Source: a virus. From it: a DNA stretch of 27,399 nucleotides. The DNA is taken from the IMG/VR virus record IMGVR_UViG_3300050821_018514, positions 1 through 27,399 of that record; one strand, written 5' to 3'. The position numbers and the translations under genes are program-made. Under the pieces are notes generated by a model. That model worked only from the letters and a program-made list of their open reading frames with translations, did no database searches and was not told the DNA's origin. Of the stretch, positions 6,431 through 27,107 are shown one piece after another; the first letter of the stretch is position 1; every line of letters starts with the position of its first letter.

Positions 6431-6434
6431 CTAT

Positions 6435-6503: not shown

Positions 6504-6507
6504 CCAT

Positions 6508-6579: not shown

Positions 6580-6583
6580 CCAT

Positions 6584-6653: not shown

Positions 6654-6662
6654 CTGTTACTT

Positions 6663-6732: not shown

Positions 6733-6733
6733 C

Positions 6734-6807: not shown

Positions 6808-6812
6808 CCAAC

Positions 6813-6879
6813 CGCAGCGCTCTCGGAGAGATCTGGCTTTCATAAGGCCGGTGAACGAGTTCAACTCTCGTAGCTGCGA
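6813..6879 (+). tRNA. tRNA with CAT anticodon (elongator Met or Ile2)
   Basis: The acceptor CGCAGCG pairs with AGCTGCG except for a G-A at 7-66. The anticodon loop is TTCATAA and the T-loop TTCAACT, with A73. The D-arm is short (CTC/GAG). Elongator Met and lysidine-modified Ile2 cannot be told apart by eye. Confidence 0.75.
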
Positions 6880-6883
6880 CTGC

Positions 6884-6951
6884 GCCTCTGTACGCTGGGC
6901 GTGGGTGAGCCCTACAAGCTTGTCTGGTCGGTTCGATCCCGAACAGAGGTA
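6884..6951 (+). tRNA. Probable tRNA-Val(TAC) with C33
   Basis: The acceptor GCCTCTG pairs with CAGAGGT through a G1-U72 pair. The T-arm is GTCGG/CCGAA with loop TTCGATC. The best anticodon arm is TGAGC-CCTACAA-GCTTG, giving TAC with C rather than U at position 33. The D-arm appears reduced to CGC-TGG-GCG. A competing GTGGG/CCTAC hairpin exists, so the isotype is less certain. Confidence 0.62.
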
Positions 6952-6952
6952 C

Positions 6953-7030
6953 CGGACGACGCCGATCGGGCGGTCCCCGAAGGGAAACTTATAGGTCCTG
7001 GGCTAGGTGGTTCAACTCCACGTCGTCCGA
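6953..7030 (+). tRNA. tRNA of unresolved isotype, Tyr-like 3' half, possible TTA anticodon
   Basis: The acceptor CGGACGA pairs perfectly with TCGTCCG, and the T-loop is TTCAACT with A73. The 3' half shares 21 bases with tRNA-Tyr, including its CCT...AGG variable arm. The anticodon arm is poor: AGGG/TCCT pairs around an 11-base region AAACTTATAGG, giving TTA if centred or TAT (Ile) if shifted by one. It may be degenerate, or a Tyr-derived ochre suppressor. Confidence 0.5.
7001..7021 (+). repeat. 21-base repeat, copy 2
   Basis: This block is identical to 4452-4472 in tRNA-Tyr, covering the end of the variable arm and most of the T-arm. Outside it the two tRNAs differ, including their acceptor stems. 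Confidence 0.85.
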
Positions 7031-7034
7031 CAAC

Positions 7035-7106
7035 GCGGGGCTCGTTCTCTGGGAGAGCACTGGCTCGACAAGCCAGATCAGGTGAGTTCGATCCTCACGC
7101 CCCGCA
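7035..7106 (+). tRNA. tRNA-Val(GAC) with C33
   Basis: The acceptor GCGGGGC pairs perfectly with GCCCCGC. The D-arm is normal for Val. The anticodon stem CTGGC/GCCAG holds the loop TCGACAA, so position 33 is C instead of the nearly universal U. The T-loop is TTCGATC, with A73. Confidence 0.88.
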
Positions 7107-7107
7107 C

Positions 7108-7180
7108 CGAGGTGGACGGGCTGGTCGCCCTAGAACGTCTGATACACGATCTGCGAAGAGTTCGATTCTCTTCACCTCGA
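7108..7180 (+). tRNA. tRNA-Ile(GAT)
   Basis: The acceptor CGAGGTG pairs perfectly with CACCTCG. The anticodon loop is CTGATAC on AACGT/ACGAT with one A-A mismatch. The T-loop is TTCGATT, with A73. It is the last tRNA before the HNH gene. Confidence 0.87.
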
Positions 7181-7208
7181 CCCAGGTTCTGCTACAAGGA
7201 GAAGAACA

Positions 7209-7232
7209 ATGTTGAGGCAAAGGTATAGGTGA
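7209..7232 (+). CDS. Possible 7-codon leader peptide before the HNH gene
   Basis: ATG 7209 is preceded by a strong AAGGAG at good spacing. The frame encodes MLRQRYR and ends in TGA at 7230-7232, which overlaps an in-frame GTG (7229) of the HNH gene as GTGA. It may couple translation into the HNH gene, or be the remnant of a gene start interrupted by insertion. Confidence 0.3.
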   Translation: MLRQRYR

Positions 7233-7237
7233 ACGTC

Positions 7238-7768
7238 ATGACCACGGACTGTTTGGTGCTCACACCCTGGATGCAACCCCACCAGATTGTTTCGTGGGAA
7301 GAGTCGGTCACTCTCGTGTACCTGAAGAAGGGTGAGGCGATCGAGAAGTACGACGCCGTCGTATCCTCGCCTTCCATCAGCTTCCACATCCCTGCCGTTC
7401 TCCGTCTCAAGAAGATGCTGGCCCGCATCAAGTCCGACGTGAAGTTCTCCCGCATCAACGTCTACACGCGGGATGGTTTCCGGTGCCAGTACTGCGGCAA
7501 GAAGAGGGTCATGAAGAGCCTCAACTACGATCACGTGGTCCCACGGTCTCGTGGTGGCCTCACGATCTGGGAGAACATCGTGACCTGCTGCATTCCCTGC
7601 AACCTCGGGAAGGACAACAAGACTCCGGAGGAGGCAGGAATGAAGCTCATTAAGAGGCCGGTGAAGCCGAAGTCCCTCCCTTTATCGGGAACCTTCCTCT
7701 TGCCGGTAAAAGTCCCAGAGCTCTGGAAGCCGTACGTTCAGCAGGAATCTCTGGATGATGTTGGGTGA
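7238..7768 (+). CDS. HNH endonuclease inside the tRNA array
   Basis: The protein belongs to the HNH nuclease group whose members begin with a LVLN-like strand and a VVSWQRA-like helix; here it reads LVLTPWMQPHQIVSWEESV. It continues with FSRINVYTRDGFRCQYCG. Zinc ligands are C83 and C86 (CQYC) and C118 and C121 (CIPC). The catalytic H99 lies in NYDHVVP and the last HNH residue is N122. At 176 residues it is near full length. I chose ATG 7238; GTG 7229 is possible and would be coupled to the upstream micro-ORF. Such free-standing nucleases often act as homing endonucleases that spread at intergenic sites in phages. Its place between tRNA-Ile and the Ser/Leu tRNA block suggests insertion into the array. 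It could instead serve in DNA metabolism. Confidence 0.9.
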   Translation: MTTDCLVLTPWMQPHQIVSWEESVTLVYLKKGEAIEKYDAVVSSPSISFHIPAVLRLKKMLARIKSDVKFSRINVYTRDGFRCQYCGKKRVMKSLNYDHVVPRSRGGLTIWENIVTCCIPCNLGKDNKTPEEAGMKLIKRPVKPKSLPLSGTFLLPVKVPELWKPYVQQESLDDVG

Positions 7769-7774
7769 ATCGAT

Positions 7775-7863
7775 GGAGAGTGATCTGGTCCGGTTGACCA
7801 GGGCTGCTTGGAAAGCAGATCGGGCGGCGAAAGCTGCCAGGTGTTCGACTCATCCTCTCTCCG
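7775..7863 (+). tRNA. tRNA-Ser(GGA)
   Basis: The acceptor GGAGAGT pairs with TCTCTCC except at 7-66, with G73 as usual for Ser. The anticodon loop is TTGGAAA. A long variable arm (GGGCGGCGAAAGCTGCC) marks class II. The T-loop is TTCGACT. It is the first of four serine tRNAs. Confidence 0.9.
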
Positions 7864-7864
7864 C

Positions 7865-7945
7865 GGAGTGTAGCGACATGGCGTCGAACGGGCCTTGAAA
7901 GCCCGGCCTGGGGCAACCCAGATCGTTCGATTCGATTACGCTCCG
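7865..7945 (+). tRNA. tRNA-Ser(TGA)
   Basis: The acceptor GGAGTGT pairs with ACGCTCC, with G73. The anticodon loop is CTTGAAA on CGGGC/GCCCG. The variable arm CTGGGGCAACCCAG is long, and the T-loop is TTCGATT. Confidence 0.91.
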
Positions 7946-7949
7946 CCAT

Positions 7950-8032
7950 GGAAGACGAACCGAGCAGGGCTCGGCGCTGTTTCGAAAACAGATGGGATCG
8001 AAAGGTCTGAGGTTCGAGTCCTCCGTTTTCCT
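7950..8032 (+). tRNA. tRNA-Ser(CGA)
   Basis: The acceptor GGAAGAC pairs with GTTTTCC. The anticodon loop is TTCGAAA on GCTGT/ACAGA. A long variable arm and the T-loop TTCGAGT are present. The discriminator is U, not the G found in the other three serine tRNAs. Confidence 0.87.
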
Positions 8033-8037
8033 CTGAT

Positions 8038-8123
8038 GGAAGTTGAATCGACCAGGGCGTCGAGCCTCCCTGCTAAGGAGTGCGGGTCCGTAAGGGCTTG
8101 AGTTTCGAGTACTCCAACTTCCG
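8038..8123 (+). tRNA. tRNA-Ser(GCT)
   Basis: The acceptor GGAAGTT pairs perfectly with AACTTCC, with G73. The anticodon loop is CTGCTAA on CCTCC/GGAGT. It has a long variable arm. The T-stem is closed by T53-A61 instead of G-C, and the T-loop is TTCGAGT. Confidence 0.88.
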
Positions 8124-8129
8124 CTATTT

Positions 8130-8213
8130 GCTCGGGTGGTGGAATGGTAGACGCGGCAAGCTCAAACCTTGTTGGCCCTTGTGGTCGTGCGGGTTCGATT
8201 CCCGCCCCGAGCA
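8130..8213 (+). tRNA. tRNA-Leu(CAA), class II
   Basis: The acceptor GCTCGGG pairs perfectly with CCCGAGC. The anticodon loop is CTCAAAC on GCAAG/CTTGT. It has a normal Leu D-arm (TGGTGGAATGGTAGACGC), a long variable arm, T-loop TTCGATT and A73. Confidence 0.93.
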
Positions 8214-8222
8214 CGAAGATAT

Positions 8223-8293
8223 TCCGGGATCGTCCAGTGGCAGGACGTTGGACTTTGAATCCAACTGCGAGAGTTCGATTCTCTCTCCCGGGA
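8223..8293 (+). tRNA. tRNA-Gln(TTG)
   Basis: The acceptor TCCGGGA pairs with TCCCGGG, again through the weak U1-G72 pair seen in Gln(CTG). The anticodon loop is CTTTGAA on TTGGA/TCCAA and the T-loop TTCGATT, with A73. Confidence 0.92.
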
Positions 8294-8297
8294 CTGT

Positions 8298-8381
8298 GGG
8301 GACGTGGTGGAATAGTAGACACGACAGGCTGAGGACCTGTTCAACGTAAGTTGAGTGAGGGTGCGATTCCCTCCGTCCCTA
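8298..8381 (+). tRNA. tRNA-Leu(GAG), class II, altered T-loop
   Basis: The acceptor GGGGACG pairs with CGTCCCT. The anticodon loop is CTGAGGA on ACAGG/CCTGT. The variable arm is long and the Leu D-arm motif normal. The T-loop is TGCGATT, with G in place of the usual T55. A73. Confidence 0.9.
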
Positions 8382-8385
8382 CCAT

Positions 8386-8458
8386 CGGTGCGTAGCTAAT
8401 TGGCAAAGCGGCCGGTTTAAGCCCGGCGTCGATGGGAGTTCGAATCTCCTCGCACCGA
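8386..8458 (+). tRNA. tRNA with Leu(TAA) anticodon on a class I, Pro-like body
   Basis: The acceptor CGGTGCG pairs perfectly with CGCACCG (C1-G72, A73). A perfect GCCGG/CCGGC stem holds the loop TTTAAGC, so the anticodon is TAA. The variable loop is short, unlike leucine tRNAs. The acceptor start and discriminator resemble proline tRNA. The amino acid actually attached is uncertain. Confidence 0.8.
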
Positions 8459-8463
8459 CTCAT

Positions 8464-8539
8464 GCCAACGTAGACCAATTAGGAAGGAGTCGCCTCGTTC
8501 AGACCGAGGACAGTGTGGGTTCGAATCCCTCCGTTGGCA
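8464..8539 (+). tRNA. tRNA with Leu(CAG) anticodon on a class I body
   Basis: The acceptor GCCAACG pairs perfectly with CGTTGGC. A perfect CCTCG/CGAGG stem holds TTCAGAC, so the anticodon is CAG. The variable loop ACAGT has five bases, where bacterial tRNA-Leu has a long arm. The T-loop is TTCGAAT, with A73. It is the last tRNA of the array. Confidence 0.82.
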
Positions 8540-8556
8540 CTGAAGAGGATCTCGAG

Positions 8557-8682: not shown

Positions 8683-10050
8683 CTAGAAGTCGTACTCGTC
8701 AGGTGGTGGACTGTTCGGGCCGTCGTCGACGAAGATGGTGTGCCCCCAGGTGGCGGGCGCCTTGTTGTAGTAGCTGCGGACGACCACCCAAATGACGTCC
8801 ACTCCTTTGGGCGCAGTGGTTGGAGCATTCCCGTCGCCATCTGTGAAGTACATGATGAGCTTCGGCCTTGGGCGGAGCTTTAGCACAGCCGAGAGAGCTG
8901 GTCCGAAGTCCGTTCCTCCACGTCCTGTGATGGGGAGTCTCGGGATGTCCCGTACGCGGACTTTCTTCACTGCCCCTACAGCAGCATCTGCGTCGAGGAA
9001 CCACACGGAATCTAGGCCGAGAGCTTTCATTACACCCACGGATTCATTCTGTGCGTCTTGAAGTTGCTTCGCTCCCATAGAGCCGGAGGTATCCCGGATG
9101 AACGCTACCTCTGGGTGTCTCTTGATGAGCCCAGGGACGATGACTCCTCGGCAGTAGCTCCTCTTTGAGGGGCGAGCCATCGAGTAGTCAGAGCCGCCGG
9201 AAACGAGTCGTCCCGTGCACCGGCGGATGACACGTCGAAGACTTGATCGCCATTTTATCTTGGGTGGCTTCAAGGCGAACTTCGCATGTTCGATCATGTG
9301 AGCGGGGATGTGCCCACGACCATGTTGAGCGACATGCTCGAGGAGGTCTCGTGCCGCTCGTTTCACCACGGCCTGCACTTCCGCAGGACTCTTGGTGCAG
9401 CCTGGCGATGCCTGTTCGGCCGCGGCGTTGATCTTGTCCTCCGTACTTGGATCGCCGTGTCCAGCTACGCCTCCGCACTTGCCTGTACACACCCCTGTTC
9501 CTTGGAGTTGGCTAGTTCCTCCTTGGCTTGGTGTGCCTCCGTCGGCTGGGGCTCCGCTCCCACCTTTGCGACCGCCTTTAGCCTTCTGCTTCTTCGGTTG
9601 TGGGTCTCCTTGCAGGAGATCGTGGTACTCCTCGAAGGAGAGGTCTTCGGGCAGTCCAAAGTCCGTGGGGTAGAGAGATCCCTTAGGGAGTGTGTATCCC
9701 ACGTGCTTCGCCCCGCAGTTGATGGCGAGGTCCATGCAGATGTTTGCCTTCTCCTTGTCTGGGTATTCCGCTCCGCGCTCGAAGTGTTCCCCCAGTATGT
9801 GTTGAGTTTCATGCCATAGGCAGGCGGCTGCCTCTTCGTCTGTGAGAGAAACGAGCCACGCGGGGTCGAACCCCATGGCGAGGCGTTCCGTGGTCATGAT
9901 GGTCTGAAGCCCAGGAATCGCGATCGGCACGAGGTTGTACGCCGTGCTTGAGTAGTAGGGTGTCTTGAGCTTCAGGAGATGGCGCGCGATGCCGACCTTC
10001 TCGTAGCCGGCATTATCGATGGCTCTTTGGGCTTTCTCTTCGTCGGTCAT
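8683..10050 (-). CDS. HExxH metallopeptidase / VWA-domain protein (MoxR partner)
   Basis: This 455-residue protein has the layout of DUF2201-type proteins. An N-terminal zinc-peptidase-like domain carries H80-E-T-Q-H84 (HExxH). A Gly/Pro/Lys-rich linker spans about residues 150-220. A C-terminal von Willebrand factor A domain has the MIDAS start D320-T-S-G-S324 and later GGTDFGPAL and MYFTDGDG. Its ATG overlaps the stop of the upstream AAA+ gene as ATGA, so the two are translated together. In known pairs (CobS/CobT, NorQ/NorD, RavA/ViaA) a MoxR ATPase and a VWA protein form a chaperone that inserts metals or remodels a target. By analogy this pair may act on a phage or host complex; the target is unknown. 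It ends in TAG just before the terminator at 8584-8615. Confidence 0.85.
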   Translation of the reverse strand: MTDEEKAQRAIDNAGYEKVGIARHLLKLKTPYYSSTAYNLVPIAIPGLQTIMTTERLAMGFDPAWLVSLTDEEAAACLWHETQHILGEHFERGAEYPDKEKANICMDLAINCGAKHVGYTLPKGSLYPTDFGLPEDLSFEEYHDLLQGDPQPKKQKAKGGRKGGSGAPADGGTPSQGGTSQLQGTGVCTGKCGGVAGHGDPSTEDKINAAAEQASPGCTKSPAEVQAVVKRAARDLLEHVAQHGRGHIPAHMIEHAKFALKPPKIKWRSSLRRVIRRCTGRLVSGGSDYSMARPSKRSYCRGVIVPGLIKRHPEVAFIRDTSGSMGAKQLQDAQNESVGVMKALGLDSVWFLDADAAVGAVKKVRVRDIPRLPITGRGGTDFGPALSAVLKLRPRPKLIMYFTDGDGNAPTTAPKGVDVIWVVVRSYYNKAPATWGHTIFVDDGPNSPPPDEYDF

Positions 10051-11243
10051 GGGCTCTTCGTCATTCGCCCGATGGGGCTGCGGGTTAGGTGCCGGATGAC
10101 GGGCTTGGCTGCATCCAGGATCTTGTCATCGGCCTGCTCGTCGGCGAGTCCTTCCTCGACGAGCTTTTGAGTAGATGCCATGGCGATGTCGGTGAGACCC
10201 ATCTTGCAGGCTGTATCGAGGATGTTCCACGCTGCTACAGCGACGGACTTCTTCTCTTGGGTTGTTTGCATCTCGACGATGTAGGACGTCATCGAGGTGT
10301 AGGCGGCGACAGCGATGTCCGGACGCTGACGGCTCGGCGCCCACCCATTAGCGAGCATATCCTTTGGGTCGGGAAGGTCGGCCTTCTCGACCCACTCGAG
10401 GAACTCTACCGTGGCTCCTTGCCCTACGGCTCCCTCCACGAAGTCCGGGATGTGCCTCGGCTTGTCGAGGCAGAGGCATGTCGCTGCGGCTCGGCCTGCC
10501 ATCCACCAGGTGCGGGGCGAGGGCCATGCGCGGTTTCGTGCGGGGTCCCCCTCACTAGGGAGATTGTGGAGGAAGTCTTTCCCTCGGGCCTGCATGAACC
10601 CAGCAACTTGCCCCTTGATCTTCGGGTACTTGGTGCCCCAGTTCTTTACGACCTTGCTCCAGAGAGACTCGATGTCGTTGACGTTGCTGTCCCCCTCCTG
10701 GGTGTACCAGTTGATCCAATCGCTTACTCGTGGGCACTTCACGTCGAAGTGGAAGAAGCGGTTGGCTTGCGGGGGCTCGAGGTCCCAGCCACCTGCAGCT
10801 TCATCGGGAGGGTTTGCAGCGGCCAGGATCCGAATCCCAGGGGGAAGTTGGTTGTCGGCCACGTAGCGCTCGAGAACCAGGGAGAGGCAAGCACCTTGGA
10901 CCGCCGGCGGGGCGCAGGAGACCTCGTCGAGGAAGAGGACCCCCTCCGTCATCTGCATGAGGCGCCGGATAGGGGCTAGGGAGCAGACGGCGTTGGCCCC
11001 GCCCTTCATGTCGGAGACCAGCACGCTCGAGAAGTCCTCGGGCTGCTTCGTTCCTGCGTAGAGGACCTCGAGGGGGAGGAGGCACCTTCTTGCCGCCGCT
11101 CGCAGGATGCCGGACTTCCCGATGCCGGGGGAGCCCCAGTACAGGGCGTTCGCCCCTTTCTGGCACAACGAATCGTTCGGGTCCCCGAGGGGCATCAGCA
11201 GGGAGATGATGATGTTCTCTTCGAGGTTCTTGATGACGGCCAT
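10047..11243 (-). CDS. MoxR-type AAA+ ATPase
   Basis: This is an AAA+ ATPase of the MoxR/CobS type, 398 residues. It shows Walker A G37-SPGIGKS44, Walker B GVLFLDEV (D106, E107), the MoxR-like PPAVQGACLSLVLE helix after Walker B, and sensor 1 in ILAAANPPD (N144). The C-terminal part is helical and contains no VWA domain. I chose ATG 11243 with an AAGAAAG upstream; an in-frame TTG at 11270 is less likely. The gene runs into the VWA gene with an ATGA overlap. Such ATPases hydrolyse ATP in hexameric rings to remodel partners presented by a VWA protein. The phage target is unknown. Confidence 0.88.
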   Translation of the reverse strand: MAVIKNLEENIIISLLMPLGDPNDSLCQKGANALYWGSPGIGKSGILRAAARRCLLPLEVLYAGTKQPEDFSSVLVSDMKGGANAVCSLAPIRRLMQMTEGVLFLDEVSCAPPAVQGACLSLVLERYVADNQLPPGIRILAAANPPDEAAGGWDLEPPQANRFFHFDVKCPRVSDWINWYTQEGDSNVNDIESLWSKVVKNWGTKYPKIKGQVAGFMQARGKDFLHNLPSEGDPARNRAWPSPRTWWMAGRAAATCLCLDKPRHIPDFVEGAVGQGATVEFLEWVEKADLPDPKDMLANGWAPSRQRPDIAVAAYTSMTSYIVEMQTTQEKKSVAVAAWNILDTACKMGLTDIAMASTQKLVEEGLADEQADDKILDAAKPVIRHLTRSPIGRMTKSP

Positions 11244-11326
11244 GAGTTTGCTTTCTTGGAGATAGAACAAGACGTGCGTGAGGCACGTGATGTTCTGGTT
11301 AGTGAACCACCGGTTCGCTTATCCCG

Positions 11327-11986
11327 CTACGTCGTCGTTTCTTGATGGCACAGGCATCTGCACTGACCCCATCGCCAGCAACGGGCGTGGGTGCACTCCT
11401 GGCACTCTCCGACTTGATTCAGATCCTCCGGTTCCCAGAGTTCAATCACGTGGTCGTTGATCAGTAGCAGGCAGCCGAGGCAAACGGCGAATGGATCTTT
11501 GGAGCTGGTGACGAACTCCTCGGTTGGTACCCCGTTCGGCATGCGAGGTGAGACGTGGAGCTCGCCCAGGTATCCGGTTCCGAAGATCTCCCATTCGCAG
11601 ATACCGCTTCCGCAGTAGTCGCAGTTGAGGAGGCTGTCCTGATGTCGCATCGGCGGTGAGTCCACCACCATCTCGTTCAGCTCTTTTACCATTCCTTCCC
11701 AGCAGGAGAACTCGAAGAAGTGTGGTGGGTAGACGTAGTCCCCTTCCTCGTCCGGAAGGAAGTTGATGATCACCTCCGAGCCATTGTGGTAGGCGTGGGA
11801 GACGGAGAAGTGCACAACTTCCTCGGTGTAATGGATGGGCTCGTCATCGTAGCTGCACTTCTTGCTACTTCTTGTAATCTCCTGAGCAAGTCGTTGCTCC
11901 TCGTACTCTCTCTCCTCTTGCTCATAGTCGCGCCTGGAAGTCTCGTCCATCTTTCGGAGGCGCAGACTCAACGAAGGTAGTTCCAT
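11327..11986 (-). CDS. Unrecognised protein with Cys-rich, probably zinc-binding C-terminal half
   Basis: The product is about 219 residues. The N-terminal region is a charged helix (SRRDYEQEEREYEEQRLAQE). The C-terminal half is Cys-rich: CDYC, CLGC, CQEC, then CRCLCH, which suggests one or two zinc sites. I chose ATG 11986, preceded by GGAGAGG; it overlaps the upstream gene by 19 bases. ATG 12016 or ATG 11950 are alternatives. It sits inside the minus-strand operon upstream of the MoxR gene, with an 83-base gap that may hold a ribosome-binding region only. Function unknown; a protein- or nucleic-acid-binding adaptor is one guess. Confidence 0.72.
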   Translation of the reverse strand: MELPSLSLRLRKMDETSRRDYEQEEREYEEQRLAQEITRSSKKCSYDDEPIHYTEEVVHFSVSHAYHNGSEVIINFLPDEEGDYVYPPHFFEFSCWEGMVKELNEMVVDSPPMRHQDSLLNCDYCGSGICEWEIFGTGYLGELHVSPRMPNGVPTEEFVTSSKDPFAVCLGCLLLINDHVIELWEPEDLNQVGECQECTHARCWRWGQCRCLCHQETTT

Positions 11987-12558
11987 TGGTGCCGCGTCCT
12001 CTCCACGCGCTTCCATCGGCGATCGACTGTTTCAAGCCGTAGGTCAGGTGATATCCCGGTCTCTGGGTCTGCATCCCAGAGCAGGATGAAGTATTCTTCG
12101 GCGTCGAAGCTCTCGTCTAGATGCACCCGTCTGTTGATTTCTCCTTCCATGAGGAACTCCGTGGGTGAGTTCAACCGGAGTAGCATCTCTCGGTCGTGCA
12201 GATCGTCCTCGAGGTCATCCTCATCCATCGCAAAGCCGTACCAGTCACGTGAGTCGGGCGGCACATAGTCCTGCCTTGCCCACTGGCACCATGTTCCTGG
12301 CTCTACCATTCCTAGGAGGACCTCGAGGTCTCTCTGGTTTATGAAGGTGACGAATCCTTTCTGGTCCGTGAGTCGGGCGCGGATACCCCCAAGCATTCTT
12401 CCGCGGATGGGTGAGTAGAATGCCTGGAGTGTCCACATTCTGTTCGGAGTGGAGGTGTCGAGGATCCGAGCCCCGACAAGGCCGAACCTTTCCTGGATGA
12501 GGCGGGTTCCCAGGTAGGTCGCCATCCGCTCCTTGTCGAGAAAAGGATCAACGATCAT
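11968..12558 (-). CDS. Unrecognised acidic protein (196 residues)
   Basis: ATG 12558 has an excellent upstream TAGGAGAAG, which also holds the stop of the preceding micro-gene, so translation is probably coupled. The product is soluble. Its middle (residues 105-130) is strongly acidic (MDEDDLEDDLHDREML) and its C-terminus basic (RRWKRVERTRHQW). No signal, membrane segment or motif is recognisable. Its operon partners suggest a role with the MoxR/VWA pair, but this is context only. Confidence 0.78.
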   Translation of the reverse strand: MIVDPFLDKERMATYLGTRLIQERFGLVGARILDTSTPNRMWTLQAFYSPIRGRMLGGIRARLTDQKGFVTFINQRDLEVLLGMVEPGTWCQWARQDYVPPDSRDWYGFAMDEDDLEDDLHDREMLLRLNSPTEFLMEGEINRRVHLDESFDAEEYFILLWDADPETGISPDLRLETVDRRWKRVERTRHQWNYLR

Positions 12559-12801: not shown

Positions 12802-13036
12802 GTTCTTCCCATCTGGGGTGAGTACTGCGCCACTCCTGTTATTCCCTGAGGATCACTTTATTTTCGTGGTACCGCGCTAGGTTGCTGGTGTTCGCAGCAC
12901 GGGCCGAGATCTGGTCGTGCCTCAGGAACAGGGCCCTTCTTGTTGACCTTCCTCCAAAAACGATCGGGTAGCTGCAGTAGTAGAAGTTTCACACTGCTTT
13001 TATGCCCGGAACTGCCGTAGTATCGTCAGCAACTAC
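12802..13036. other. Divergent intergenic region between the MoxR operon and the RNA polymerase gene
   Basis: This 235-base region must hold promoters for two divergent units. It contains a hairpin TGCTG-GTGTTCG-CAGCA near 12883-12899, a GGGCCC site near 12931, a plus-strand TTGACC at 12943-12948 without a good -10 at the expected distance, and an AT-rich minus-strand AAAATAAAG near 12855-12865. I found no convincing gene in it. Confidence 0.45.
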
Positions 13037-16000
13037 ATGCCGCATCTCGATCCCCAAGATGCCTTCGAGCACTTCCAAGGTCGTGTGATTGAAGGTATCC
13101 GTCAGCACTTCCCCCTTACTGGGAAATTGCAGACACTCAGCCTCGAGCACATTGAGGCGAAGGACGAGCTGGACCCGGATGACATTCGTTCGCAGCACCA
13201 TGCGAAGATGACGGGGGAGTCCTGGACGGTTCCCGTCTATGCGACCTTGAAGCTCACTGACAATGCGACAGGCAAGACTGTCGACATGAAGAAGATTCGG
13301 GTCGCCGAGATCCCGAAGATGACGAAGAGGTACTCGTACATCGTCGACGGGCAGGAGTACCAGGTCGACAACCAGTGGCAGCTCAAGCCCGGTGTGTACG
13401 TACGCCGGCGCCAGAACGGTGAGCTCGAGAGCCGCTTCAACGTCTCCGGTCGTCAGGCGTTCGACATTGTTTTCGAGCCCAAGACGAACCGCTTTTTGAT
13501 GGACTACGGCAAGAGCAAGCTCCCGCTCTACCCCATCCTCAAGACGATGGGTGTAGACGACGACACACTGGAGAAGGCCTGGGGAAAGAAGATCCTCGAG
13601 GACAATAAGACGGCTCGTGGTGTAGCAGGCACCGTCGAGCGGTTCTACAAGGCGGATAAGAAGGTGGCCGCTCCCTCCGCCGAGGAAGCGAAGCAACACC
13701 TCTACGATGCTCTCACCAACTCCAAGATGCGGCCGGAGGCTGTGGCCCTAACGCTTGGAAAGCCCGTCGATCATGTCACCGGGGAGGTCATGCGCCTGGC
13801 CACGGAGAAGATGCTTCATGTCCAAGGTGGAGCAAAAGAGGACGATCGTGACAGCTTGGTGTTCAAGGACCTGCGTACGATCGGCGATTTCGCCTACGAC
13901 AAGTTGAAGCAGTCAGGCTCGAACATCCGGCAGAAGGTCTCGAGGAAGATGAACAGCGCGAAGTCTGTTCGAGACATCGTGAAGTTCGGGCTATTCAATG
14001 AGCCGGTGAAGCAGATCTTCCACAAGAACCCTGCCTCTCGTGTAGCCTCCCAGGTGAACCCAGTGGAAATGGTGAGCTCGTCTCAGCAGACGACCATCAT
14101 GGGCCCTGGTGGTATCCAGAGTGAGCAGTCAGTCACGGATGAAGCTAAGTTCGTAAACCCCTCTCACCTGGGATTCCTCGATCCCATCCACACACCGGAA
14201 GGAGAGAAGACGGGCATTACATTGCGCCTGCCCCTAGGTGTGTCGAAGGTGGGTAATGAGCCGAAGATCCATCTCTACAATCTGAAGACTAGTAGAATGG
14301 AAATGCTCTCCCCTGGTGACATCCAGAACACACGGGTAGTTCTTCCTGACCAGGTGAAGTGGGAGAACGGTAAGCCTACGCCCCTTTCGGCGAAGGTGAA
14401 GATGAACATGCACGGGATGGAGATTCGGGAGGAGAAGTTTTCTGAGGCAACCCATGCCCTTCGCCACCCATCCCAGCTTTTCAACATCACCTCGAACCTA
14501 ATCCCCTTCCTGGGGAATACAAACGGCAACCGTGCCTCGATGGCTACTCGCCACATCGAGCAAGCCATTTCGCTTGCGGATCGAGAGAAGCCTCTCGTGC
14601 AGGTCGCCACAGGTGTGAGTGTTCAGGGAATCGATACGTTCGAGAACCTCATCGGCAAGCAGGCCTCCCATCACTCTCCTGTCGAGGGCACTGTTACTGA
14701 GGTGAAGAAGGATGGCATTGTCATCAAGTCGAGGGACGGTAAGAAGCATGAGGTGCAGCTCTATCACTACTACCCGTTGAATGACGCGAAGAGCGTGATG
14801 CACTCGACTCCTCTTGTGCAGGTTGGGGCTCATGTTCGTGCAGGGCAGACAGTGGCTGATACCAACTTCTCCAAGGGCGGAACTCTTGCACTCGGTACGA
14901 ACCTCCGCGTCGGCTATCTTCCATACAAGGGGTACAACTTCGAGGACGGTATCGTCATCTCACAGAGCGCGGCGGAGAAGCTGTCCAGCGAGCATCTCCA
15001 GAAGCACTCCCTAGCCATTGATGCGGAGACTGTGTTCGACACGAAGAAGTTCCGCGTCGAGCACGCTGGAACCTTCCGGGATGAGCAGCTCAAGAAGATT
15101 GGCGATGATGGGGTGGTCAAGATTGGTACGAAGGTGATGCCCGGAGATCCCCTTGTCATTGCGATGAAGCCCTTCAAGCTGAAGGACCGTACGGGTGTGG
15201 CTGCGATCCGCCGCTCACTTGCGGGAGCTCATACTGATAAGAGCTTGCGGTGGGATTCGGACTTCGAGGGCACTGTCGTCGACACCCACAAGAGTGGGAA
15301 GGAGATCGTTGTCCATGTGAAGACAACGGAGCCGATGCAGATCGGTGACAAGATGGCGGGTCGCTATGGCAACAAGGGCATCGTCACAATGATCCTGCCG
15401 AACAACCAGATGCCTCACACCAAGGACGGTAAACACATAGAGGTGGCCCTCAATCCGAGCGGTGTCCCAGGTCGAATGAATATCGGACAGGTGCTCGAGA
15501 CGGCAGCGGGGAAGATCGCGCAGAAGACGGGGAAGACCTACATCGTCAAGAACTTCGAGCCCCACACCGATCAACTAGAGAAGGTGAAGCGTGAGCTTGT
15601 AGAGCACGGGTTGCACGACACTGAGGAAGTCTTCGATCCCGAGACGGGTCACACCATAGGTCAGGTCCTCGTGGGCCCACAGCACATGCTGAAGCTCGTG
15701 CACCAGGTCGACAAGAAGCTCTCGGTGCGTAGTGGCATGGCCTCTCCTGGAACTGGGGAGCACTACGACTTCAACCTGCAACCCACCTCCGGTTCTGGTA
15801 CGGGCGGACAATCTATGGGTGTCCTCGGTATGTACGCCATGCTCGCGCATGGAGCGAAGGCGAACATCCGGGAGATGCAGACCTGGAAGAGTGAGGGGCA
15901 GGATCCGCAGACTCACCCTGCGAAGCAGTGGCAGAGCCAGCACAATCAGGTGTGGACGGCCATTCAAACGGGTCTCCCACTCCCAGTGCCCACATCTACG

Positions 16001-19000
16001 TTCGCCTTCCAGAAGTTCACTGACATGCTGCGCGCCGCCGGCGTGAATGTGGAGAAGAAGGGGCACGCCTTTGTCCTCACTCCTCTTACGGACAAGCAAG
16101 TCCTGAAGATGAGCGCCGGTGCCTTGTCGAAGGCTACCGATACCATCGACGCAAAGTTCAAGGACGGTGAGCCCAAGCCCAAGGTAGGTGGCATCTTCGA
16201 TGAAAAGATCACGGGTGGGTTGGGCGGTAGGAAGTGGTCACACATCAACCTGGCGGAGCCCATTCCCAACCCCGTCTTCGAGAAGCCTATTCAGCGACTC
16301 GTGGGTCTCTCGAAGAAGGAGTATTACGATGTCGTTACAGGTTCTCGTGGAGTTACTCCTACGGGGAATCTTACGGATGTCGACGCCGGCATTACGGGCG
16401 GTGCAGCCATCAAAATGCTGCTTGATCGCATCGATGTGAAGAAGGAGCTCGCCTCCTCGAAGCGGGCTCTCACCCTCGCGAAGGGGGCGAAGATCGATCC
16501 TGCCCTAAAGAAGGTGAAGTACCTGAAGGCGCTCGACGAGCTAGGGCTCAAGCCTAGTGAGGCTTACATCCTTCATCACCTGCCTGTTATTCCCCCAGTG
16601 ATGCGGCCAGTGTCTGTTCTGCCGAGTGGTGATCTGAAGCTGGCTGATTTGAACGGCCTCTACTCTGAGTTTGCTCAGGTCAACGACAGTTTGAAGGATC
16701 CGTTCCTCAACAAGAACTACACGGATGCCTCGAAGAAGAGTTTGCGCGCCGACTTTTACGATGGGGTGAAGACCATTGCCGGTCTCGGGATTCCTTACGA
16801 AGATCAGAAGGCCAAGCAGAAGGGTGTCATCCAACAGATCTCCGGTGTTTCCCCTAAGGAGGGGTACTTCCAGAAGACGCTGATGAATCGTCGGCAGGAC
16901 TTGACGATGCGCTCAACGATTGTTCCAGAGCCCGCTCTTGGCCTCGATGAGATTGGGCTGCCTAAGGATGCGGCCCTGACTCTCTTCAAGCCCTTCGTGG
17001 TGAAGAAGCTCAAGGATATGGGGCACGCTCCCACAGCGATCGAGGCGCAGAAGATCATTGGTGAGAAGACCCCTGCTGTATGGAAAGCACTCGAGAGCGT
17101 GGTGCAGGAGAGGCCCGTGCTCCTCAAACGAGATCCGGCGCTGCACAAGTACAGCGTTCAAGCGTTCAAACCCAAGCTCGTCAATGGGTCGGCTATTCAG
17201 ATCCATCCGCTTGTGACGGGTGGGTACAACGCCGACTTCGACGGGGACACCATGAGTGTGTTCGTGCCCATCTCCCCGGAGGCGGTGGCTGAGGCACACA
17301 AGATGATGCCTTCGAATAACTTGTTCAGCGAGGCAACCGGCCACGTGATGTATCAGCCGACGCTCGAGGCAGCGCTCGGCCTCTACAAGTTGTCCCTCAC
17401 CGGGAAGGACACCGGAAAGAAGTTCGAACATGAGGGGGCGGTACTCGATTCGATTCGGAAGGGCGATATCTCAGTACACGACATCGTCGAAGTTGGGTCG
17501 CACCGTACGACGGGTGGGCGAATTCTTCTCGCTTCTGCGCTTCCTGAACCGATGCAGAAAGGAGTCCTTCACGATCTGGAGATGAGGATCGACAGGCATG
17601 GCCTGAAGCACCTGTTCACAGAGGTGGCTCAGAAGCACGAGAAGGACTTCGGGGATGTAGCGAATCGACTCAAGGATCTTGGTAACGGGGCAGCCTTCGG
17701 TATGGTCGCCATACCGGCGCCTTCAGACTCTGGCCACCACTTCCAGTTCCACGACAAGATGAACATCGCGGACAAGAAGAAGCCCATCTACATCCCGATG
17801 GGGACACACACCCTCAGCCTCAAGGACTTCACACCGGATAAGAAGGTGCGCGAGGCAGTCCTTGGTGAGACTCGGAAGAAGGTCCAGGAGATCTATGACA
17901 GCACGACCATCCCTCACGCGGATAAAGACCGGCGTGCCATCATCCTTTGGGATGAGGCGGGTAAGGAGATGCAGAAGCAGCACGAGGCCAACGAGAAGAA
18001 GGCCCCCTCGAACCTCTTTATGATGTATCAGGCAGGCGTGAAGCCTGGGTGGGATCAGTACAAGCAGATGGTCCTGGCGCCTATGCTCTTTAGCGACAGT
18101 GCCAACAAGACTCTCCCTACTCCCGTTACCAGGTCCTACGCCGAGGGCCTAGACGTAGGTGGGTACTGGAACCAGATGCCTGGAGCTCGCCGTGGCTCTG
18201 TCATGAAGGTGCAGGAGGTTCAGCAGCCTGGCTACATGTCCAAGCTCCTCATGAACAATACGATGCATGTCATCGTCGACAGTCATGACTGTGGGACGAA
18301 GAGGGGGATTGCGCTCGACATTCATGAGCCGGACGTCCACGATCGCTACCTCGCCGAAGACTTCAACGTCGGTCACATGAAGATCCCCGCGGGCACACTC
18401 TTGAGTCCTGATATCGTGGGGCAGATCAAGGCTGCCAAGAAGGATGCTCGAGTCGTCGTCCGCTCCCCGCTCAAGTGCGAGAGCGAGAAGGGGCTCTGCC
18501 AGAAGTGTGTTGGGCTCGATGCAGATGGGCATGTCCACGACAAGGGCACCGCCATTGGGGTGCTGGCTTCTCACACGCTCGGTGAGCGTGCGGTCCAGCT
18601 CACCCTGAAGGAGTTCCACACGGGTGGTGTGAAGGGCTCCGGAGGTGGTAAGTTGCTGAACAACTTCGCCAGATTCCAGCAGCTCACAATGCTGCCCCAG
18701 AAGATCCCCAACGCTGCCAGTCTTGCAATGACGAGCGGAAAGATCGAGAAGATCGAGCACCACCGTGGTGGGGCCGACGTCTACATCAATGGGGTGAAGC
18801 ACTTTGTCGGTCTCGATGTCACGGGCATGCCTCTGCACGAGAACCTCCCGCATGAGTCGAAGAGGGAGGGCTTCATGGCCTGGGATCCTCCCAAGGTGGG
18901 AGAGCATGTCGAGGCTGGGGATTACCTCTCTGACCCGAACCGAACCTTCGTAAACCCCCACGACCTGTACAAGGCCACGGGGAACATTGAGAAGGTCCAG

Positions 19001-19459
19001 AACCACATGGCCTCGGAGATCTATGAGCTCTATAAGAAGGAGGGTATCCGTCGGCGTGCCGTAGAGACCGTGGTGAAGGCGATGAGCAACCTCACAAAGG
19101 TCACTGATCCTGGGGATGACCCCGACACTCTACGTGGAGAGTTCCGCCCGCTGTCGGTCATCCGCAAGATGAACGCCGACCTCGTGAAGGCAGGGAAGAA
19201 TCCTATTGAACACAAGCCTGTCCTCAAGGGCGTCGACATGATGCCTCTCTCGCTGCAAGAGGATTGGATGGCGAAGCTCCAGCATCAGCGCCTGAAGGAG
19301 AGCATCGTAGATGCGGCCGCAAACAATGGAGTCTCCCTCATCCACGGGGAACACCCTGTCCCTGGTATGGCTTTCGGAGCGGAGTTTGGGTTGACCAAGG
19401 CTGACTCCAAGAAGCCAGGTCTCAAGCACCTCGAGACAGTCCAAGAGTTCCATTACTGA
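13037..19459 (+). CDS. Single-chain RNA polymerase: beta-beta' fusion (2140 residues)
   Basis: The two largest subunits of a bacterial-type multisubunit RNA polymerase are fused. The beta half holds PSHLGFLDPIHTPEGEKTG (375-393), GYLPYKGYNFEDGIVIS, GDKMAGRYGNKG (770-781) and GVPGRMNIGQ. The beta' half begins near residue 1040 (GGIFDEKITGGL...HINLAEPI). It has the catalytic NADFDGD (1398-1404, three Mg-binding Asp), the second zinc site C1752, C1814, C1821 and C1824, and the bridge-helix/trigger-loop region from 1840 (IGVLASHTLGERAVQLTLKE). The first beta' zinc finger is missing: IFDEKITGG runs straight to HINL. The chain is shorter than typical separate beta plus beta' (about 2500 residues). 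Its ATG has no clear Shine-Dalgarno. The TGA overlaps the spike gene as TGATG. It probably transcribes phage genes; position among virion genes allows packaging in the particle. No alpha, omega or sigma gene is visible nearby. Confidence 0.95.
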   Translation: MPHLDPQDAFEHFQGRVIEGIRQHFPLTGKLQTLSLEHIEAKDELDPDDIRSQHHAKMTGESWTVPVYATLKLTDNATGKTVDMKKIRVAEIPKMTKRYSYIVDGQEYQVDNQWQLKPGVYVRRRQNGELESRFNVSGRQAFDIVFEPKTNRFLMDYGKSKLPLYPILKTMGVDDDTLEKAWGKKILEDNKTARGVAGTVERFYKADKKVAAPSAEEAKQHLYDALTNSKMRPEAVALTLGKPVDHVTGEVMRLATEKMLHVQGGAKEDDRDSLVFKDLRTIGDFAYDKLKQSGSNIRQKVSRKMNSAKSVRDIVKFGLFNEPVKQIFHKNPASRVASQVNPVEMVSSSQQTTIMGPGGIQSEQSVTDEAKFVNPSHLGFLDPIHTPEGEKTGITLRLPLGVSKVGNEPKIHLYNLKTSRMEMLSPGDIQNTRVVLPDQVKWENGKPTPLSAKVKMNMHGMEIREEKFSEATHALRHPSQLFNITSNLIPFLGNTNGNRASMATRHIEQAISLADREKPLVQVATGVSVQGIDTFENLIGKQASHHSPVEGTVTEVKKDGIVIKSRDGKKHEVQLYHYYPLNDAKSVMHSTPLVQVGAHVRAGQTVADTNFSKGGTLALGTNLRVGYLPYKGYNFEDGIVISQSAAEKLSSEHLQKHSLAIDAETVFDTKKFRVEHAGTFRDEQLKKIGDDGVVKIGTKVMPGDPLVIAMKPFKLKDRTGVAAIRRSLAGAHTDKSLRWDSDFEGTVVDTHKSGKEIVVHVKTTEPMQIGDKMAGRYGNKGIVTMILPNNQMPHTKDGKHIEVALNPSGVPGRMNIGQVLETAAGKIAQKTGKTYIVKNFEPHTDQLEKVKRELVEHGLHDTEEVFDPETGHTIGQVLVGPQHMLKLVHQVDKKLSVRSGMASPGTGEHYDFNLQPTSGSGTGGQSMGVLGMYAMLAHGAKANIREMQTWKSEGQDPQTHPAKQWQSQHNQVWTAIQTGLPLPVPTSTFAFQKFTDMLRAAGVNVEKKGHAFVLTPLTDKQVLKMSAGALSKATDTIDAKFKDGEPKPKVGGIFDEKITGGLGGRKWSHINLAEPIPNPVFEKPIQRLVGLSKKEYYDVVTGSRGVTPTGNLTDVDAGITGGAAIKMLLDRIDVKKELASSKRALTLAKGAKIDPALKKVKYLKALDELGLKPSEAYILHHLPVIPPVMRPVSVLPSGDLKLADLNGLYSEFAQVNDSLKDPFLNKNYTDASKKSLRADFYDGVKTIAGLGIPYEDQKAKQKGVIQQISGVSPKEGYFQKTLMNRRQDLTMRSTIVPEPALGLDEIGLPKDAALTLFKPFVVKKLKDMGHAPTAIEAQKIIGEKTPAVWKALESVVQERPVLLKRDPALHKYSVQAFKPKLVNGSAIQIHPLVTGGYNADFDGDTMSVFVPISPEAVAEAHKMMPSNNLFSEATGHVMYQPTLEAALGLYKLSLTGKDTGKKFEHEGAVLDSIRKGDISVHDIVEVGSHRTTGGRILLASALPEPMQKGVLHDLEMRIDRHGLKHLFTEVAQKHEKDFGDVANRLKDLGNGAAFGMVAIPAPSDSGHHFQFHDKMNIADKKKPIYIPMGTHTLSLKDFTPDKKVREAVLGETRKKVQEIYDSTTIPHADKDRRAIILWDEAGKEMQKQHEANEKKAPSNLFMMYQAGVKPGWDQYKQMVLAPMLFSDSANKTLPTPVTRSYAEGLDVGGYWNQMPGARRGSVMKVQEVQQPGYMSKLLMNNTMHVIVDSHDCGTKRGIALDIHEPDVHDRYLAEDFNVGHMKIPAGTLLSPDIVGQIKAAKKDARVVVRSPLKCESEKGLCQKCVGLDADGHVHDKGTAIGVLASHTLGERAVQLTLKEFHTGGVKGSGGGKLLNNFARFQQLTMLPQKIPNAASLAMTSGKIEKIEHHRGGADVYINGVKHFVGLDVTGMPLHENLPHESKREGFMAWDPPKVGEHVEAGDYLSDPNRTFVNPHDLYKATGNIEKVQNHMASEIYELYKKEGIRRRAVETVVKAMSNLTKVTDPGDDPDTLRGEFRPLSVIRKMNADLVKAGKNPIEHKPVLKGVDMMPLSLQEDWMAKLQHQRLKESIVDAAANNGVSLIHGEHPVPGMAFGAEFGLTKADSKKPGLKHLETVQEFHY

Positions 19460-20712
19460 TGCCTGCTCCCGACTCAATCAACAGGACGGGTCAACGAGAG
19501 CCCCGAGAGTCCACTTTCCGGAACTCTGCGACCTCGAGGGAAGGCCATGTCCCAGGACGGATTGTTCAGGGGAAGATCGTCAACGTCAACATGAAGAACT
19601 GGACGGTCGATGTGCTGGGTGCACACGATCGTAAGCGCTGGTTCAACATTCAGATTGGTTCTCCTTACCAGAACACCTTTGCCGGCGAGGGGTTCTTCGT
19701 TGTTCCAGAGGTGGGCTCGGTGTGCATGGTCGCCCTGACCTCTGATAGCTCGGCGCCGTTCCTGCTGACGTTCATCATGCCGCCGGAGAAGATTACGGAC
19801 ACCTCGGCGTCGGACGCTCCAACAGGTACCCGCTCGCATGGTAACAACCCCCAGTACCCCACGGATGTGACCTATGCCGGCGGGCGCCCAAACTACACCC
19901 CTGGTACTCTTGGGATGACGGGGAGAGACGGGCAGTTCGTTCTCCTTCATCGTGGTGGTGTACTTCAGCTGGGCGCAAGTCCTCTCGCTCAGCGCATCTA
20001 CATTCCTCTCACCAACTTGGTGATGGATGTCAGTCAGCGTTACGCTCATCACAACATTGGTGGGGCTATCCTGTGGGGGATGCAGGAGGGTCAGGGGCAG
20101 ACGAACTTCCCCACGACTCAGGTACAGACCTTCCGTGTGATGGCGAACGATCAGTACGCCACCGTTCGAATTCAGCGCGGCAATGTCACGAGTCCACTAT
20201 CCGATAGCTCAGGTGTGATCAAAGACACGGTGGTGTACGAAGTGTCCGTCATTCCCCTTGGCTTCAACGCCGATGCCGGAGATGTGGCCAGTGCATCAGC
20301 AGCAGGTGCGGTTAACTACAGGTACACGATCGATAAGAGCGGAAACGTTTCGGTCGTTGTAGCTGGTGACGTTTTTCAGACCTACGCGAAGACTCTCACT
20401 ATGAACGTGACTGGGACATTCTCGGTCAACGGGCAGGCAGATGGCGCGATGACTTTTCAGAAGGGGTTCACTCTTCAGGGAGGAGACTTCGCCAATATCC
20501 AGGGGAAGATTGTGAGGCTGGGCGCTGGAACTACAGGTGTTGCTAGAAAGGGAGATCTGATCACTATCCCAGCGAATTTTCCGAAAGGCGTCCCGCTGCA
20601 GTGCATGATTACGTTTCCTTCTACGCCAGCTACCTCTGGTCCATGCACTATTCAGTGGCTCACAGCGATAGGCGGGGCAATTAGCACTGCGAACGATGCG
20701 GTGAAGGCATGA
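19459..20712 (+). CDS. Baseplate spike, gpV/gp5-like OB-fold protein
   Basis: The 417-residue product has an N-terminal region, GRIVQGKIVNVNMKNWTVDV, then GFFVVPEVGSVCMVALTSD and FLLTFIMPP. This matches the OB-fold start of phage baseplate assembly protein V and gp5-type spikes. The centre contains GRDGQFVLLHRGGVLQLGAS, typical of the link into the spike. The C-terminal part is beta-rich and repetitive (DKSGNVSVVVAGDVFQTYA), as expected for a trimeric beta-helix tip. Its ATG overlaps the polymerase stop (TGATG), so synthesis is likely coupled. The next gene overlaps by four bases. This points to a contractile-tailed phage. Assignment is by pattern, without a search. Confidence 0.75.
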   Translation: MPAPDSINRTGQREPRESTFRNSATSREGHVPGRIVQGKIVNVNMKNWTVDVLGAHDRKRWFNIQIGSPYQNTFAGEGFFVVPEVGSVCMVALTSDSSAPFLLTFIMPPEKITDTSASDAPTGTRSHGNNPQYPTDVTYAGGRPNYTPGTLGMTGRDGQFVLLHRGGVLQLGASPLAQRIYIPLTNLVMDVSQRYAHHNIGGAILWGMQEGQGQTNFPTTQVQTFRVMANDQYATVRIQRGNVTSPLSDSSGVIKDTVVYEVSVIPLGFNADAGDVASASAAGAVNYRYTIDKSGNVSVVVAGDVFQTYAKTLTMNVTGTFSVNGQADGAMTFQKGFTLQGGDFANIQGKIVRLGAGTTGVARKGDLITIPANFPKGVPLQCMITFPSTPATSGPCTIQWLTAIGGAISTANDAVKA

Positions 20713-25033: not shown

Positions 25034-25278
25034 GAAGTACTTACCTTAGCGCTGGCTTTCCACCCCAGCTCTCGTAGGTACTCCTTGATGTATTCGGCGA
25101 CGGCTTTTCGGGCGTCCGGGGGGATGGCAGCGCGAAGTGTGGCGATGGCCTCATACCCCTTACCTTTGGGGTTGAGTTCCCCGCCTGGTACCCAGTGATC
25201 ACCCGCTCTTTGAAGTGAGTCGAAGAGCTGGGTGAGGACGGCCTCTGCTTCCATTGTGGCCTTGGGGTCGCTTGCCAT
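25003..25278 (-). CDS. Small unrecognised minus-strand protein (91 residues)
   Basis: The frame MASDPKATMEAEAVLTQLFD continues into a compact helical protein ending in a basic strand (KASAKVSTSQVRITLSRA). It has a natural amino-acid composition. It fills the gap between the 155-residue gene and the terminase almost exactly. It overlaps the preceding plus-strand gene tail to tail by 31 bases and starts 14 bases from the terminase ATG, divergently. No motif recognised. It is less certain than its neighbours. Confidence 0.6.
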   Translation of the reverse strand: MASDPKATMEAEAVLTQLFDSLQRAGDHWVPGGELNPKGKGYEAIATLRAAIPPDARKAVAEYIKEYLRELGWKASAKVSTSQVRITLSRA

Positions 25279-25292
25279 GTAGTATCACCTCA

Positions 25293-27107
25293 ATGAGTGC
25301 GACTGCTCATGCTGCTGACCCGGTAATAGATGTACCGGATGAAGAGTTCGAGGAAGAGGAGCTAGTCGAAGACTACGCGACTTGGTGCCCTGAGCCTGCC
25401 GTTATCTACGACCTGGATGCTTTCCGCCGGCGTAAGAAGCTCATCAACATTCCCTCGGTTCTGCCTTCGCAGTTCACCGAGTTCGCTTTTCGGATGCCGA
25501 ACCCGGAGTCCGGGTCCCCGAATGAGCCCCAGTACATACCATTCTCCTTCGATGGGCGTCGGCATATGCGGCAGCCCTACGACACCCCTGCTCGCCGTAT
25601 CCTGCTCTTCTGTGCTCGGCAGGTAGAGAAGTCTACCCTCCTCGGCAACAAGGCCATCACCTACTCCTGCTTGGTGGATGGCTACCGTACGCTCTACGTT
25701 TCCCCCTCGGCGACGCAGACCAAGACCTTCAGCCACGACCGTATCAAGGAGCCGCTCGAGACCAGCACCATCTTGAAGGCGTTCACCACAACGGCCCTTC
25801 AGCAGAACGTCTTCGAGAAACAGTTCGTCAACCGTTCGAAGATCACGCTGCGCTACGCCTTTCTCAACGCCGATCGAACTCGAGGTATCCCGGCGTGGGG
25901 TCTCATGGTCGACGAGCTTCAGGACATCCTTGGAGACAATGTCCCGATCATCGAACAGTGCCTCAGCCACGCACCGGAGAAGTGGAAGAGGTACATCTAC
26001 TCGGGCACACCCAAGTCACTCGACAATGTTCTCGAGTACTACCGCGGCCACTTGTCGACGCAGGGGGAGTGGGTAGTTCCCTGCGATGCGCATGCTGGAG
26101 ATGGAGGTCGGTACTGGAACGTCCTCGCTGAGAAGAACATTGGGCTTAAGAGCCTGATCTGCGAGAAGTGTGGGAAGGAGATCAACCCTCAACATCCGGA
26201 CGCCCAATGGGCGAACATGGTGAGGGAGGCTGACTTCGAGAGCTATCGCATCCCGCAGCTCATGGTCCCGTGGAGGTCGTGGAAGGAAATTCTCCTCGAC
26301 TACAAGCGCTACCCACGTGACAAGTTTTACAATGAGGTCCTTGGGATCTCTTTCGACTCTGGCCTTCGGCCGCTCACCACCGCTCAGCTCCAGGAGTGCT
26401 GCCACCCAAAGGTGACGATGCATCCGGACATGCTGGCGAAGTACCGCGCTTTAGCCTATGGGCAGCCGGTCTATGCGGGTCTCGACTGGGGTACAGGAGA
26501 GCACTCTTTCACGATGCTCTCTCTTGGGATGTACGTTGGCTTGAAGTTCCGCATCTTCTACATCCACCGCTTCGAGGGTGAAGAAACAGATCCCGTCGTG
26601 CAGCTCGACAAGATCTGCGCAATGCTTCGCGAGTACAACGTGAAGATCATAGGGGCTGATTATGGTGGAGGCTTCCACTCGAACGATCGCCTCATTCGAG
26701 AGTTCGGTACTCAGCGCGTGCAGAAGTATCAGTACATGGCGCGCTGCAAGAAGAAGGTCGAGTGGGAGCCTCGTCTCCGTCGGTGGAAGGTGTTCCGCAC
26801 TGAGGTGATGAGCGACGTCTTCAATGCCATCAAGCGGAATCAGGTCGAGTTCCCCCGTTGGGAGGAATTCCGAGAGCCCTTTGCTCAGGACATGTTGAAC
26901 ATCTTCAGTGAGTACAACCAGACGCTCCGCATGATCCAATACAGCCACGGAGTGGACAAGCCGGATGATGCTCTCCACTCAGTGCTCTACTGCCTGCTCG
27001 CCTCGATGATAATCCAGCCTCGGCCGGACATCATCAGCCCGAACCGAGAGGAGCCGAACCGTGGCCCGCTGTGGTCCAGTTATTCTGGCCCCACATATCA
27101 GGGCTAG
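25293..27107 (+). CDS. Terminase large subunit
   Basis: The terminase large subunit is the ATPase and nuclease that packages DNA through the portal. The 604-residue product shows, in order: a Walker A-like ARQVEKST (residues 108-115), Walker B LMVDE (D207, E208), the coupling motif S237-G-T, a CEKC zinc half-site, and an RNase H-like nuclease with D398 (GLDWGTG), D456 (GADYGGG) and D558-D559 (KPDDALH). The Walker A Gly before Lys is Glu. ATG 25293 was chosen because upstream codons overlap the divergent small gene; no strong Shine-Dalgarno is visible. Its TAG shares CTAG with the convergent gene behind it. Confidence 0.93.
   Translation: MSATAHAADPVIDVPDEEFEEEELVEDYATWCPEPAVIYDLDAFRRRKKLINIPSVLPSQFTEFAFRMPNPESGSPNEPQYIPFSFDGRRHMRQPYDTPARRILLFCARQVEKSTLLGNKAITYSCLVDGYRTLYVSPSATQTKTFSHDRIKEPLETSTILKAFTTTALQQNVFEKQFVNRSKITLRYAFLNADRTRGIPAWGLMVDELQDILGDNVPIIEQCLSHAPEKWKRYIYSGTPKSLDNVLEYYRGHLSTQGEWVVPCDAHAGDGGRYWNVLAEKNIGLKSLICEKCGKEINPQHPDAQWANMVREADFESYRIPQLMVPWRSWKEILLDYKRYPRDKFYNEVLGISFDSGLRPLTTAQLQECCHPKVTMHPDMLAKYRALAYGQPVYAGLDWGTGEHSFTMLSLGMYVGLKFRIFYIHRFEGEETDPVVQLDKICAMLREYNVKIIGADYGGGFHSNDRLIREFGTQRVQKYQYMARCKKKVEWEPRLRRWKVFRTEVMSDVFNAIKRNQVEFPRWEEFREPFAQDMLNIFSEYNQTLRMIQYSHGVDKPDDALHSVLYCLLASMIIQPRPDIISPNREEPNRGPLWSSYSGPTYQG

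Follow-up and report, generated by a model that had tools for sequence, protein, structure and literature searches.

The window analysed here is the whole of a 27,399-base virus record, which is probably a fragment, and it carries a large RNA polymerase gene within a phage structural cluster, as had been predicted. A portal protein homologue (2016–4121, plus strand), of the same family as the Gp204 portal of Salmonella phage Arash, lies upstream of the polymerase gene, as the portal gene does throughout the clade. Also upstream are a single array of 30 tRNA genes (4400–8540), within which lies an HNH endonuclease frame (7229–7768), and a minus-strand operon (8683–12558). At 8683–11270 (minus strand) a DUF2201 metallopeptidase/VWA protein adjoins a MoxR-type AAA ATPase, and this pair is kept beside the polymerase across the window's clade. 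The polymerase frame (13037–19459, plus strand) is coupled to the next gene by the predicted TGATG overlap (19457–19461, plus strand), in which the stop codon occupies 19457–19459 and the ATG 19459–19461. The product of that next gene (19459–20712, plus strand; 417 residues) had been labelled a spike, and the label holds at the family level, the protein being a gp5/VgrG-type central spike. A helicase was also considered for this frame because the same one-base overlap occurs at gp216/gp217 of Arash, and was dropped, the protein belonging to a different family. Three unassigned genes lie 3′ of the spike gene, followed by the large terminase subunit (25254–27107, plus strand; profile match, PF05876), and portal, spike and terminase together place Caudovirales hallmark genes on the contig.

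The polymerase gene runs from ATG to TGA as one uninterrupted frame of 2140 codons with no internal stop, and along the chain Pfam places Rpb2 domains 3 and 6 followed by Rpb1 domains 1, 2 and 5, the match to Rpb1 domain 1 being under the cut-off. The motifs on which the original prediction relied were all located, intact, in the sequence or by alignment, and all of the features given here lie on the plus strand. In the beta half, the flap tip region (15143–15253), the platform for sigma region 4, is shorter than that of Salmonella RpoB, and is followed by GDKMAGRYGNKG (residues 770–781; 15344–15379), which contains the catalytic lysines and begins with GDKMAGR (residues 770–776). Relative to Salmonella RpoB and RpoC, the beta part extends to where beta normally ends, and beta′ starts at most about 10 residues on, giving a junction with almost no linker at about residues 1006–1017 (16052–16087). 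Missing from the chain, as from all aligned phage forms, is the first beta′ zinc ribbon (deletion site at 16202–16237). The clamp helices (16595–16786), the platform for sigma region 2, are kept, and like the flap tip they have diverged from the bacterial sequence. There follow the NADFDGD active site (residues 1398–1404; 17228–17248), the bridge helix region (18143–18286), the second beta′ zinc site (Cys 1752, 1814, 1821 and 1824; 18290–18508) and the trigger loop (18578–18628).

The structural comparison that had been proposed was carried out by running AlphaFold on two overlapping halves of the chain (mean pLDDT 84.5 and 86.4), and both halves match bacterial subunits, with TM scores of 0.79/0.78 for RpoC and about 0.72–0.78 for RpoB; many of the bacterial structures matched are sigma complexes. 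Nonsynonymous and synonymous distances between the window polymerase and that of a relative, L002, are about 0.19 and 1.32, with synonymous sites near saturation, which shows strong purifying selection and excludes a chance frame. The beta and beta′ catalytic motifs, bridge helix, trigger loop and overall fold are those of a bacterial-type multisubunit polymerase of the two-barrel (DPBB) class. The product of 13037–19459 is the catalytic core of a bacterial-type RNA polymerase owned by the phage, with complete beta and beta′ cores in one chain. Catalytic inactivity had been raised as an objection; given that the catalytic residues are invariant and that the gene is under purifying selection, we set it aside and predict an active enzyme.

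The polymerase was originally presented as an isolated case, a view which has to be abandoned, as the published mReC lineage (PMC7481178), or a clade adjoining it, includes about 100 fused enzymes of which this is one. Two scans of viral contigs returned 97 distinct fused beta-beta′ proteins, 26–74% identical, and wherever their loci were examined they adjoin portal, spike and terminase genes. In nine further relatives a break following the catalytic domain of beta′ divides the enzyme into beta-beta′N and beta′C, the arrangement of the isolates Arash and D69. Arash and the Vibrio phages D69, D148 and D181 carry a homologous polymerase (31–34% identity over most of its length) with a portal gene just upstream and a sigma of the family described below, and Arash and D69 share the ATAAG element considered further on; these isolates differ from the window in their separate beta′C gene, in an AADYDGD active site and in an additional RpoS-like sigma, a second sigma gene being seen in D69 (L067) and Arash (L068). 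Large insertions occur in 14 relatives, those tested containing LAGLIDADG or intein domains (L032, L036, L045, L065, L177 and L188), several of them within the beta and beta′ catalytic motifs, and the 960-residue terminase frame of L042 may also hold an insertion. One fused member, L156, has a degenerate beta catalytic motif (ADKLSNLSAGKG) and is possibly altered or inactive. In L170, beta and beta′ occupy three short adjacent frames, representing either a real split or frameshifts.

No alpha, omega or sigma gene had been noticed nearby, and this is correct within the window, the phage's own sigma being absent from the 27-kb fragment; in the genomes of relatives, however, a sigma is encoded elsewhere. 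The search for sigma- and alpha-like genes, run on relatives' records, divided accordingly: a sigma-70-family protein of about 255 residues is encoded, once in nearly every case, by 39 of the 42 records that are 118 kb or longer (none was found in the long relatives G001, G012 and G052), while alpha gave zero matches above cut-off in 28 records. Omega gave zero matches in 24 records, and a single polymerase locus per genome was seen in 24 of 24. Of 28 records, just 7 pass the cut-off of the Pfam model for sigma region 2 and 6 that for region 4 when these models are used alone, and a family-specific profile was needed; it was weak Pfam matches that led to the conserved protein. Within the family, region 3 lies above the Pfam cut-off, regions 2 and 4 are weak singly, and the family profile matches regions 2–4 of SigA/RpoD, the complement expected of a sigma-70-family member. 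The gene is far from that of the polymerase and in most contigs stands among tail and lysin genes. Across 50,697 phage records the family occurs only in four polymerase-bearing isolates, and a scan of viral contigs by sigma alone, with close family members as the query, produced six new contigs, the polymerase being present on five and the remaining one being a fragment. Promoter recognition, originally posed as an open puzzle, thus acquires a candidate answer in this dedicated sigma-70-family protein, whose gene lies far from that of the polymerase. In Cobetia phage Carin-5, a distant phage with a split polymerase, an annotated sigma adjoins the polymerase, and sigma use may therefore be wider.

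Seven of the eight genomes compared have a promoter-like element, [T]GG[GT]ATAAG[AT]A, ahead of genes on the non-structural strand, and the ATAAG motif is absent in G058. Upstream of such genes ATAAG ranks 3–29 among the 1024 five-mers in seven of eight genomes, and on the structural strand 138–852, ranks which are approximate since the background was a mononucleotide shuffle and the ORFs were called mechanically. At 14 of the 28 loci scanned in the window's clade the element points towards the divergent operon and lies 49–74 bases from where the polymerase gene begins; where relatives carry GGGGATAAG, comparison of the loci finds a degenerate copy in the window (GGGAATAAC; 12838–12846, minus strand). 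Upstream of the AAA ATPase gene, a motif search gave a candidate early-promoter element, CGGGATAAG (11318–11326, minus strand), which is weak and not significant alone, a match being present also in 23 of 100 shuffles. Copies of KATAAGWA, searched for across the window, occur inside the polymerase gene only. Bacterial −10 boxes end in T, whereas the ATAAG element ends in G and is common to phages of different hosts, and we infer that the enzyme reading it is the phage polymerase.

Taken with the virion data discussed below, we consider it likely that the polymerase is a virion-carried, alpha-free, single-chain core which, with a dedicated sigma, transcribes early genes. Bacteria use alpha as a scaffold for assembly of their polymerase; with beta and beta′ end to end and almost no linker between them, the two halves would not need to find each other, which may make such a scaffold dispensable. 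The sigma, presumably present in the window's phage and encoded elsewhere in its genome, would join the core via the clamp helices and flap. Core and sigma would be made alongside the late structural proteins and packed into the virion, as shown for the Arash homologue, and would enter the cell together with the DNA. Transcription would then begin, probably once the DNA is injected, at the ATAAG promoters before the early, non-structural-strand genes, one polymerase serving the phage. We also favour, somewhat less firmly, the broader proposition that a widespread phage lineage injects a complete bacterial-style holoenzyme composed of a one-chain core free of alpha and omega and its own sigma-70-family factor, acting at lineage-specific early promoters. 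If true, no earlier phage virion polymerase in the literature searched would be known to use a sigma, and the system would supply a minimal bacterial-type polymerase encoded by one gene, together with its cognate sigma and a promoter prediction, which could be tested in vitro at once. Such an enzyme is relevant to the alpha-free assembly of cellular polymerases, to promoter recognition by phage virion polymerases and to a deeply branching part of the polymerase family.

Packaging had been suggested from the TGATG overlap, which is not the strong evidence; that evidence comes from the virion proteome of Arash (PMC10585845), measured in this phage only, whose polymerase is about 34% identical to that of the window and has beta′ in two chains. 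There, Gp206 (beta-beta′N) gave 3516 spectra, the highest of all proteins and above capsid, tail and portal, with 128 unique peptides; Gp216 (beta′C) gave 1210 spectra and Gp10, a member of the same sigma family as that of the relatives, 467, and the second sigma, Gp196, is missing from the virion protein table (PMC10585845). By our own arithmetic this amounts to about 2.3 spectra per residue for Gp206, 2.0 for Gp216 and 2.0 for Gp10, the portal having 1.5 and the capsid protein 4.3, values that are compatible with an equimolar holoenzyme, spectra per residue being a crude measure. It may be argued that the polymerase is instead made during infection for late genes, that its presence in particles is carry-over and that the host polymerase reads the early genes. 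The authors of the Arash study themselves suggest either early transcription or carry-over for Gp206, which they name 'subunit beta', and caution that abundant infection proteins may contaminate particles in their list of 116 proteins (PMC10585845). The polymerase gene does sit in the late structural cluster, and a separate motif, CTAAAATA(TA), a candidate late promoter, stands before genes of the structural strand in D69 and Arash, that for Arash beta′C among them; it does not extend to G015 or G020. (A further late-promoter candidate, TATAAATA, was dropped, having a single Arash match that is not intergenic.) Carry-over is nonetheless difficult to reconcile with the abundance of Gp206 when DNA primase and similar proteins are represented by 2 unique peptides (PMC10585845), or with a sigma present at similar spectra per residue, and the terminal G of an early element common to phages of different hosts argues against its being read by host polymerases. 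We regard the late-gene explanation as unlikely, and prefer early transcription by a packaged holoenzyme.

Even with packaging granted, the phage sigma could serve the host core, leaving the fused polymerase to find promoters alone or with another factor. Phage sigmas do usually redirect the host core, and the jumbo phages that bear RNA polymerases are, according to reviews, without a sigma (PMC7598289, PMC7824862). The sigma family is, however, found only together with this polymerase, both proteins are in the Arash virion, and the fused core retains the clamp helices and flap. We consider such a division of labour improbable, more so than late transcription, and retain the pairing of the dedicated sigma with the phage core.

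The phylogeny of both halves, which had been called for, was examined with quick maximum-likelihood trees from a joint alignment and from beta and beta′ alone, with Bacteria, and neither Archaea nor Eukarya, representing cells. In all three the phage enzymes fall outside Bacteria, separated from them by a branch with support of 100. Cellular RpoBC fusions, which exist in several bacterial groups (L201, L202, L205, L206, L207, L209–L211, L213, L215 and L223; at least two origins in the tree), nest within Bacteria at two places, so the phage fusion is independent of theirs; the cut forms nest within the fused phage enzymes, from which we conclude that the beta′ cut came later. A captured cellular fusion or an assembly or binning error, the former conceivable given that cellular fusions are known from several phyla, is refuted by this fully supported branch and by 97 distinct fused sequences, beside phage genes where examined, and we assign it a negligible probability.

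Among described systems, the closest likeness is to mReC, which has alignable bacterial-like beta and beta′ with NADFDGD on Caudovirales contigs, branches outside cells and is surrounded by phage hallmark genes (PMC7481178). The main text of that paper describes beta and beta′ subunits with no fusion, sigma, virion location or promoter, and mentions fusion only for crAssphage (PMC7481178). A position apart from cellular polymerases is seen in our trees, with Bacteria as the only cells. The mReC terminases with Pfam hits are PF03237 (PMC7481178), a common marker rather than a definition of the group, whereas the window's is PF05876. The window polymerase belongs to, or lies very near, the mReC lineage; we term it 'mReC-like' because the named mReC sequences were unmatched by name and the terminase family differs. 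A literature search, with supplements and subscription papers outside it, returned no report of fused beta-beta′ in this lineage. What is new is the dedicated sigma, the lack of alpha and omega matches with one polymerase per genome, the tie to the Arash virion data and the ATAAG element, and a largely uncultivated lineage is now connected with an isolate whose virion proteome has been measured.

The phiKZ/AR9-type jumbo phage polymerases are likewise of the DPBB type, lack alpha and omega, and exist in a virion form, but they comprise four or five chains in virion and non-virion sets, without a sigma (PMC7598289, PMC7824862), whereas the fused phages have one chain and one enzyme per genome, with a sigma. 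Single-chain phage polymerases are also known from crAss-like phages and from P23-45, where virion location was shown for that phage's own enzyme (PMC10770324); the crAss enzyme cannot be recognised by sequence as a homologue of COG0085/0086 (PMC7481178) and that of P23-45 is joined to a tape measure protein, while most of the bacterial domains are retained in the window polymerase. Cellular RpoBC fusions share the beta-then-beta′ order in one chain, but are independent, lie within Bacteria and are longer, at about 2500–2800 residues. The metagenome number of L156 (3300017989) is that of two named mReC contigs, which proves nothing as to identity. Last, three polymerase-bearing phage-like contigs (L196, L197 and L199) are binned in Deltaproteobacteria/Myxococcota, Thermoguttaceae and Bacillus MAGs, and offer weak hints as to hosts.
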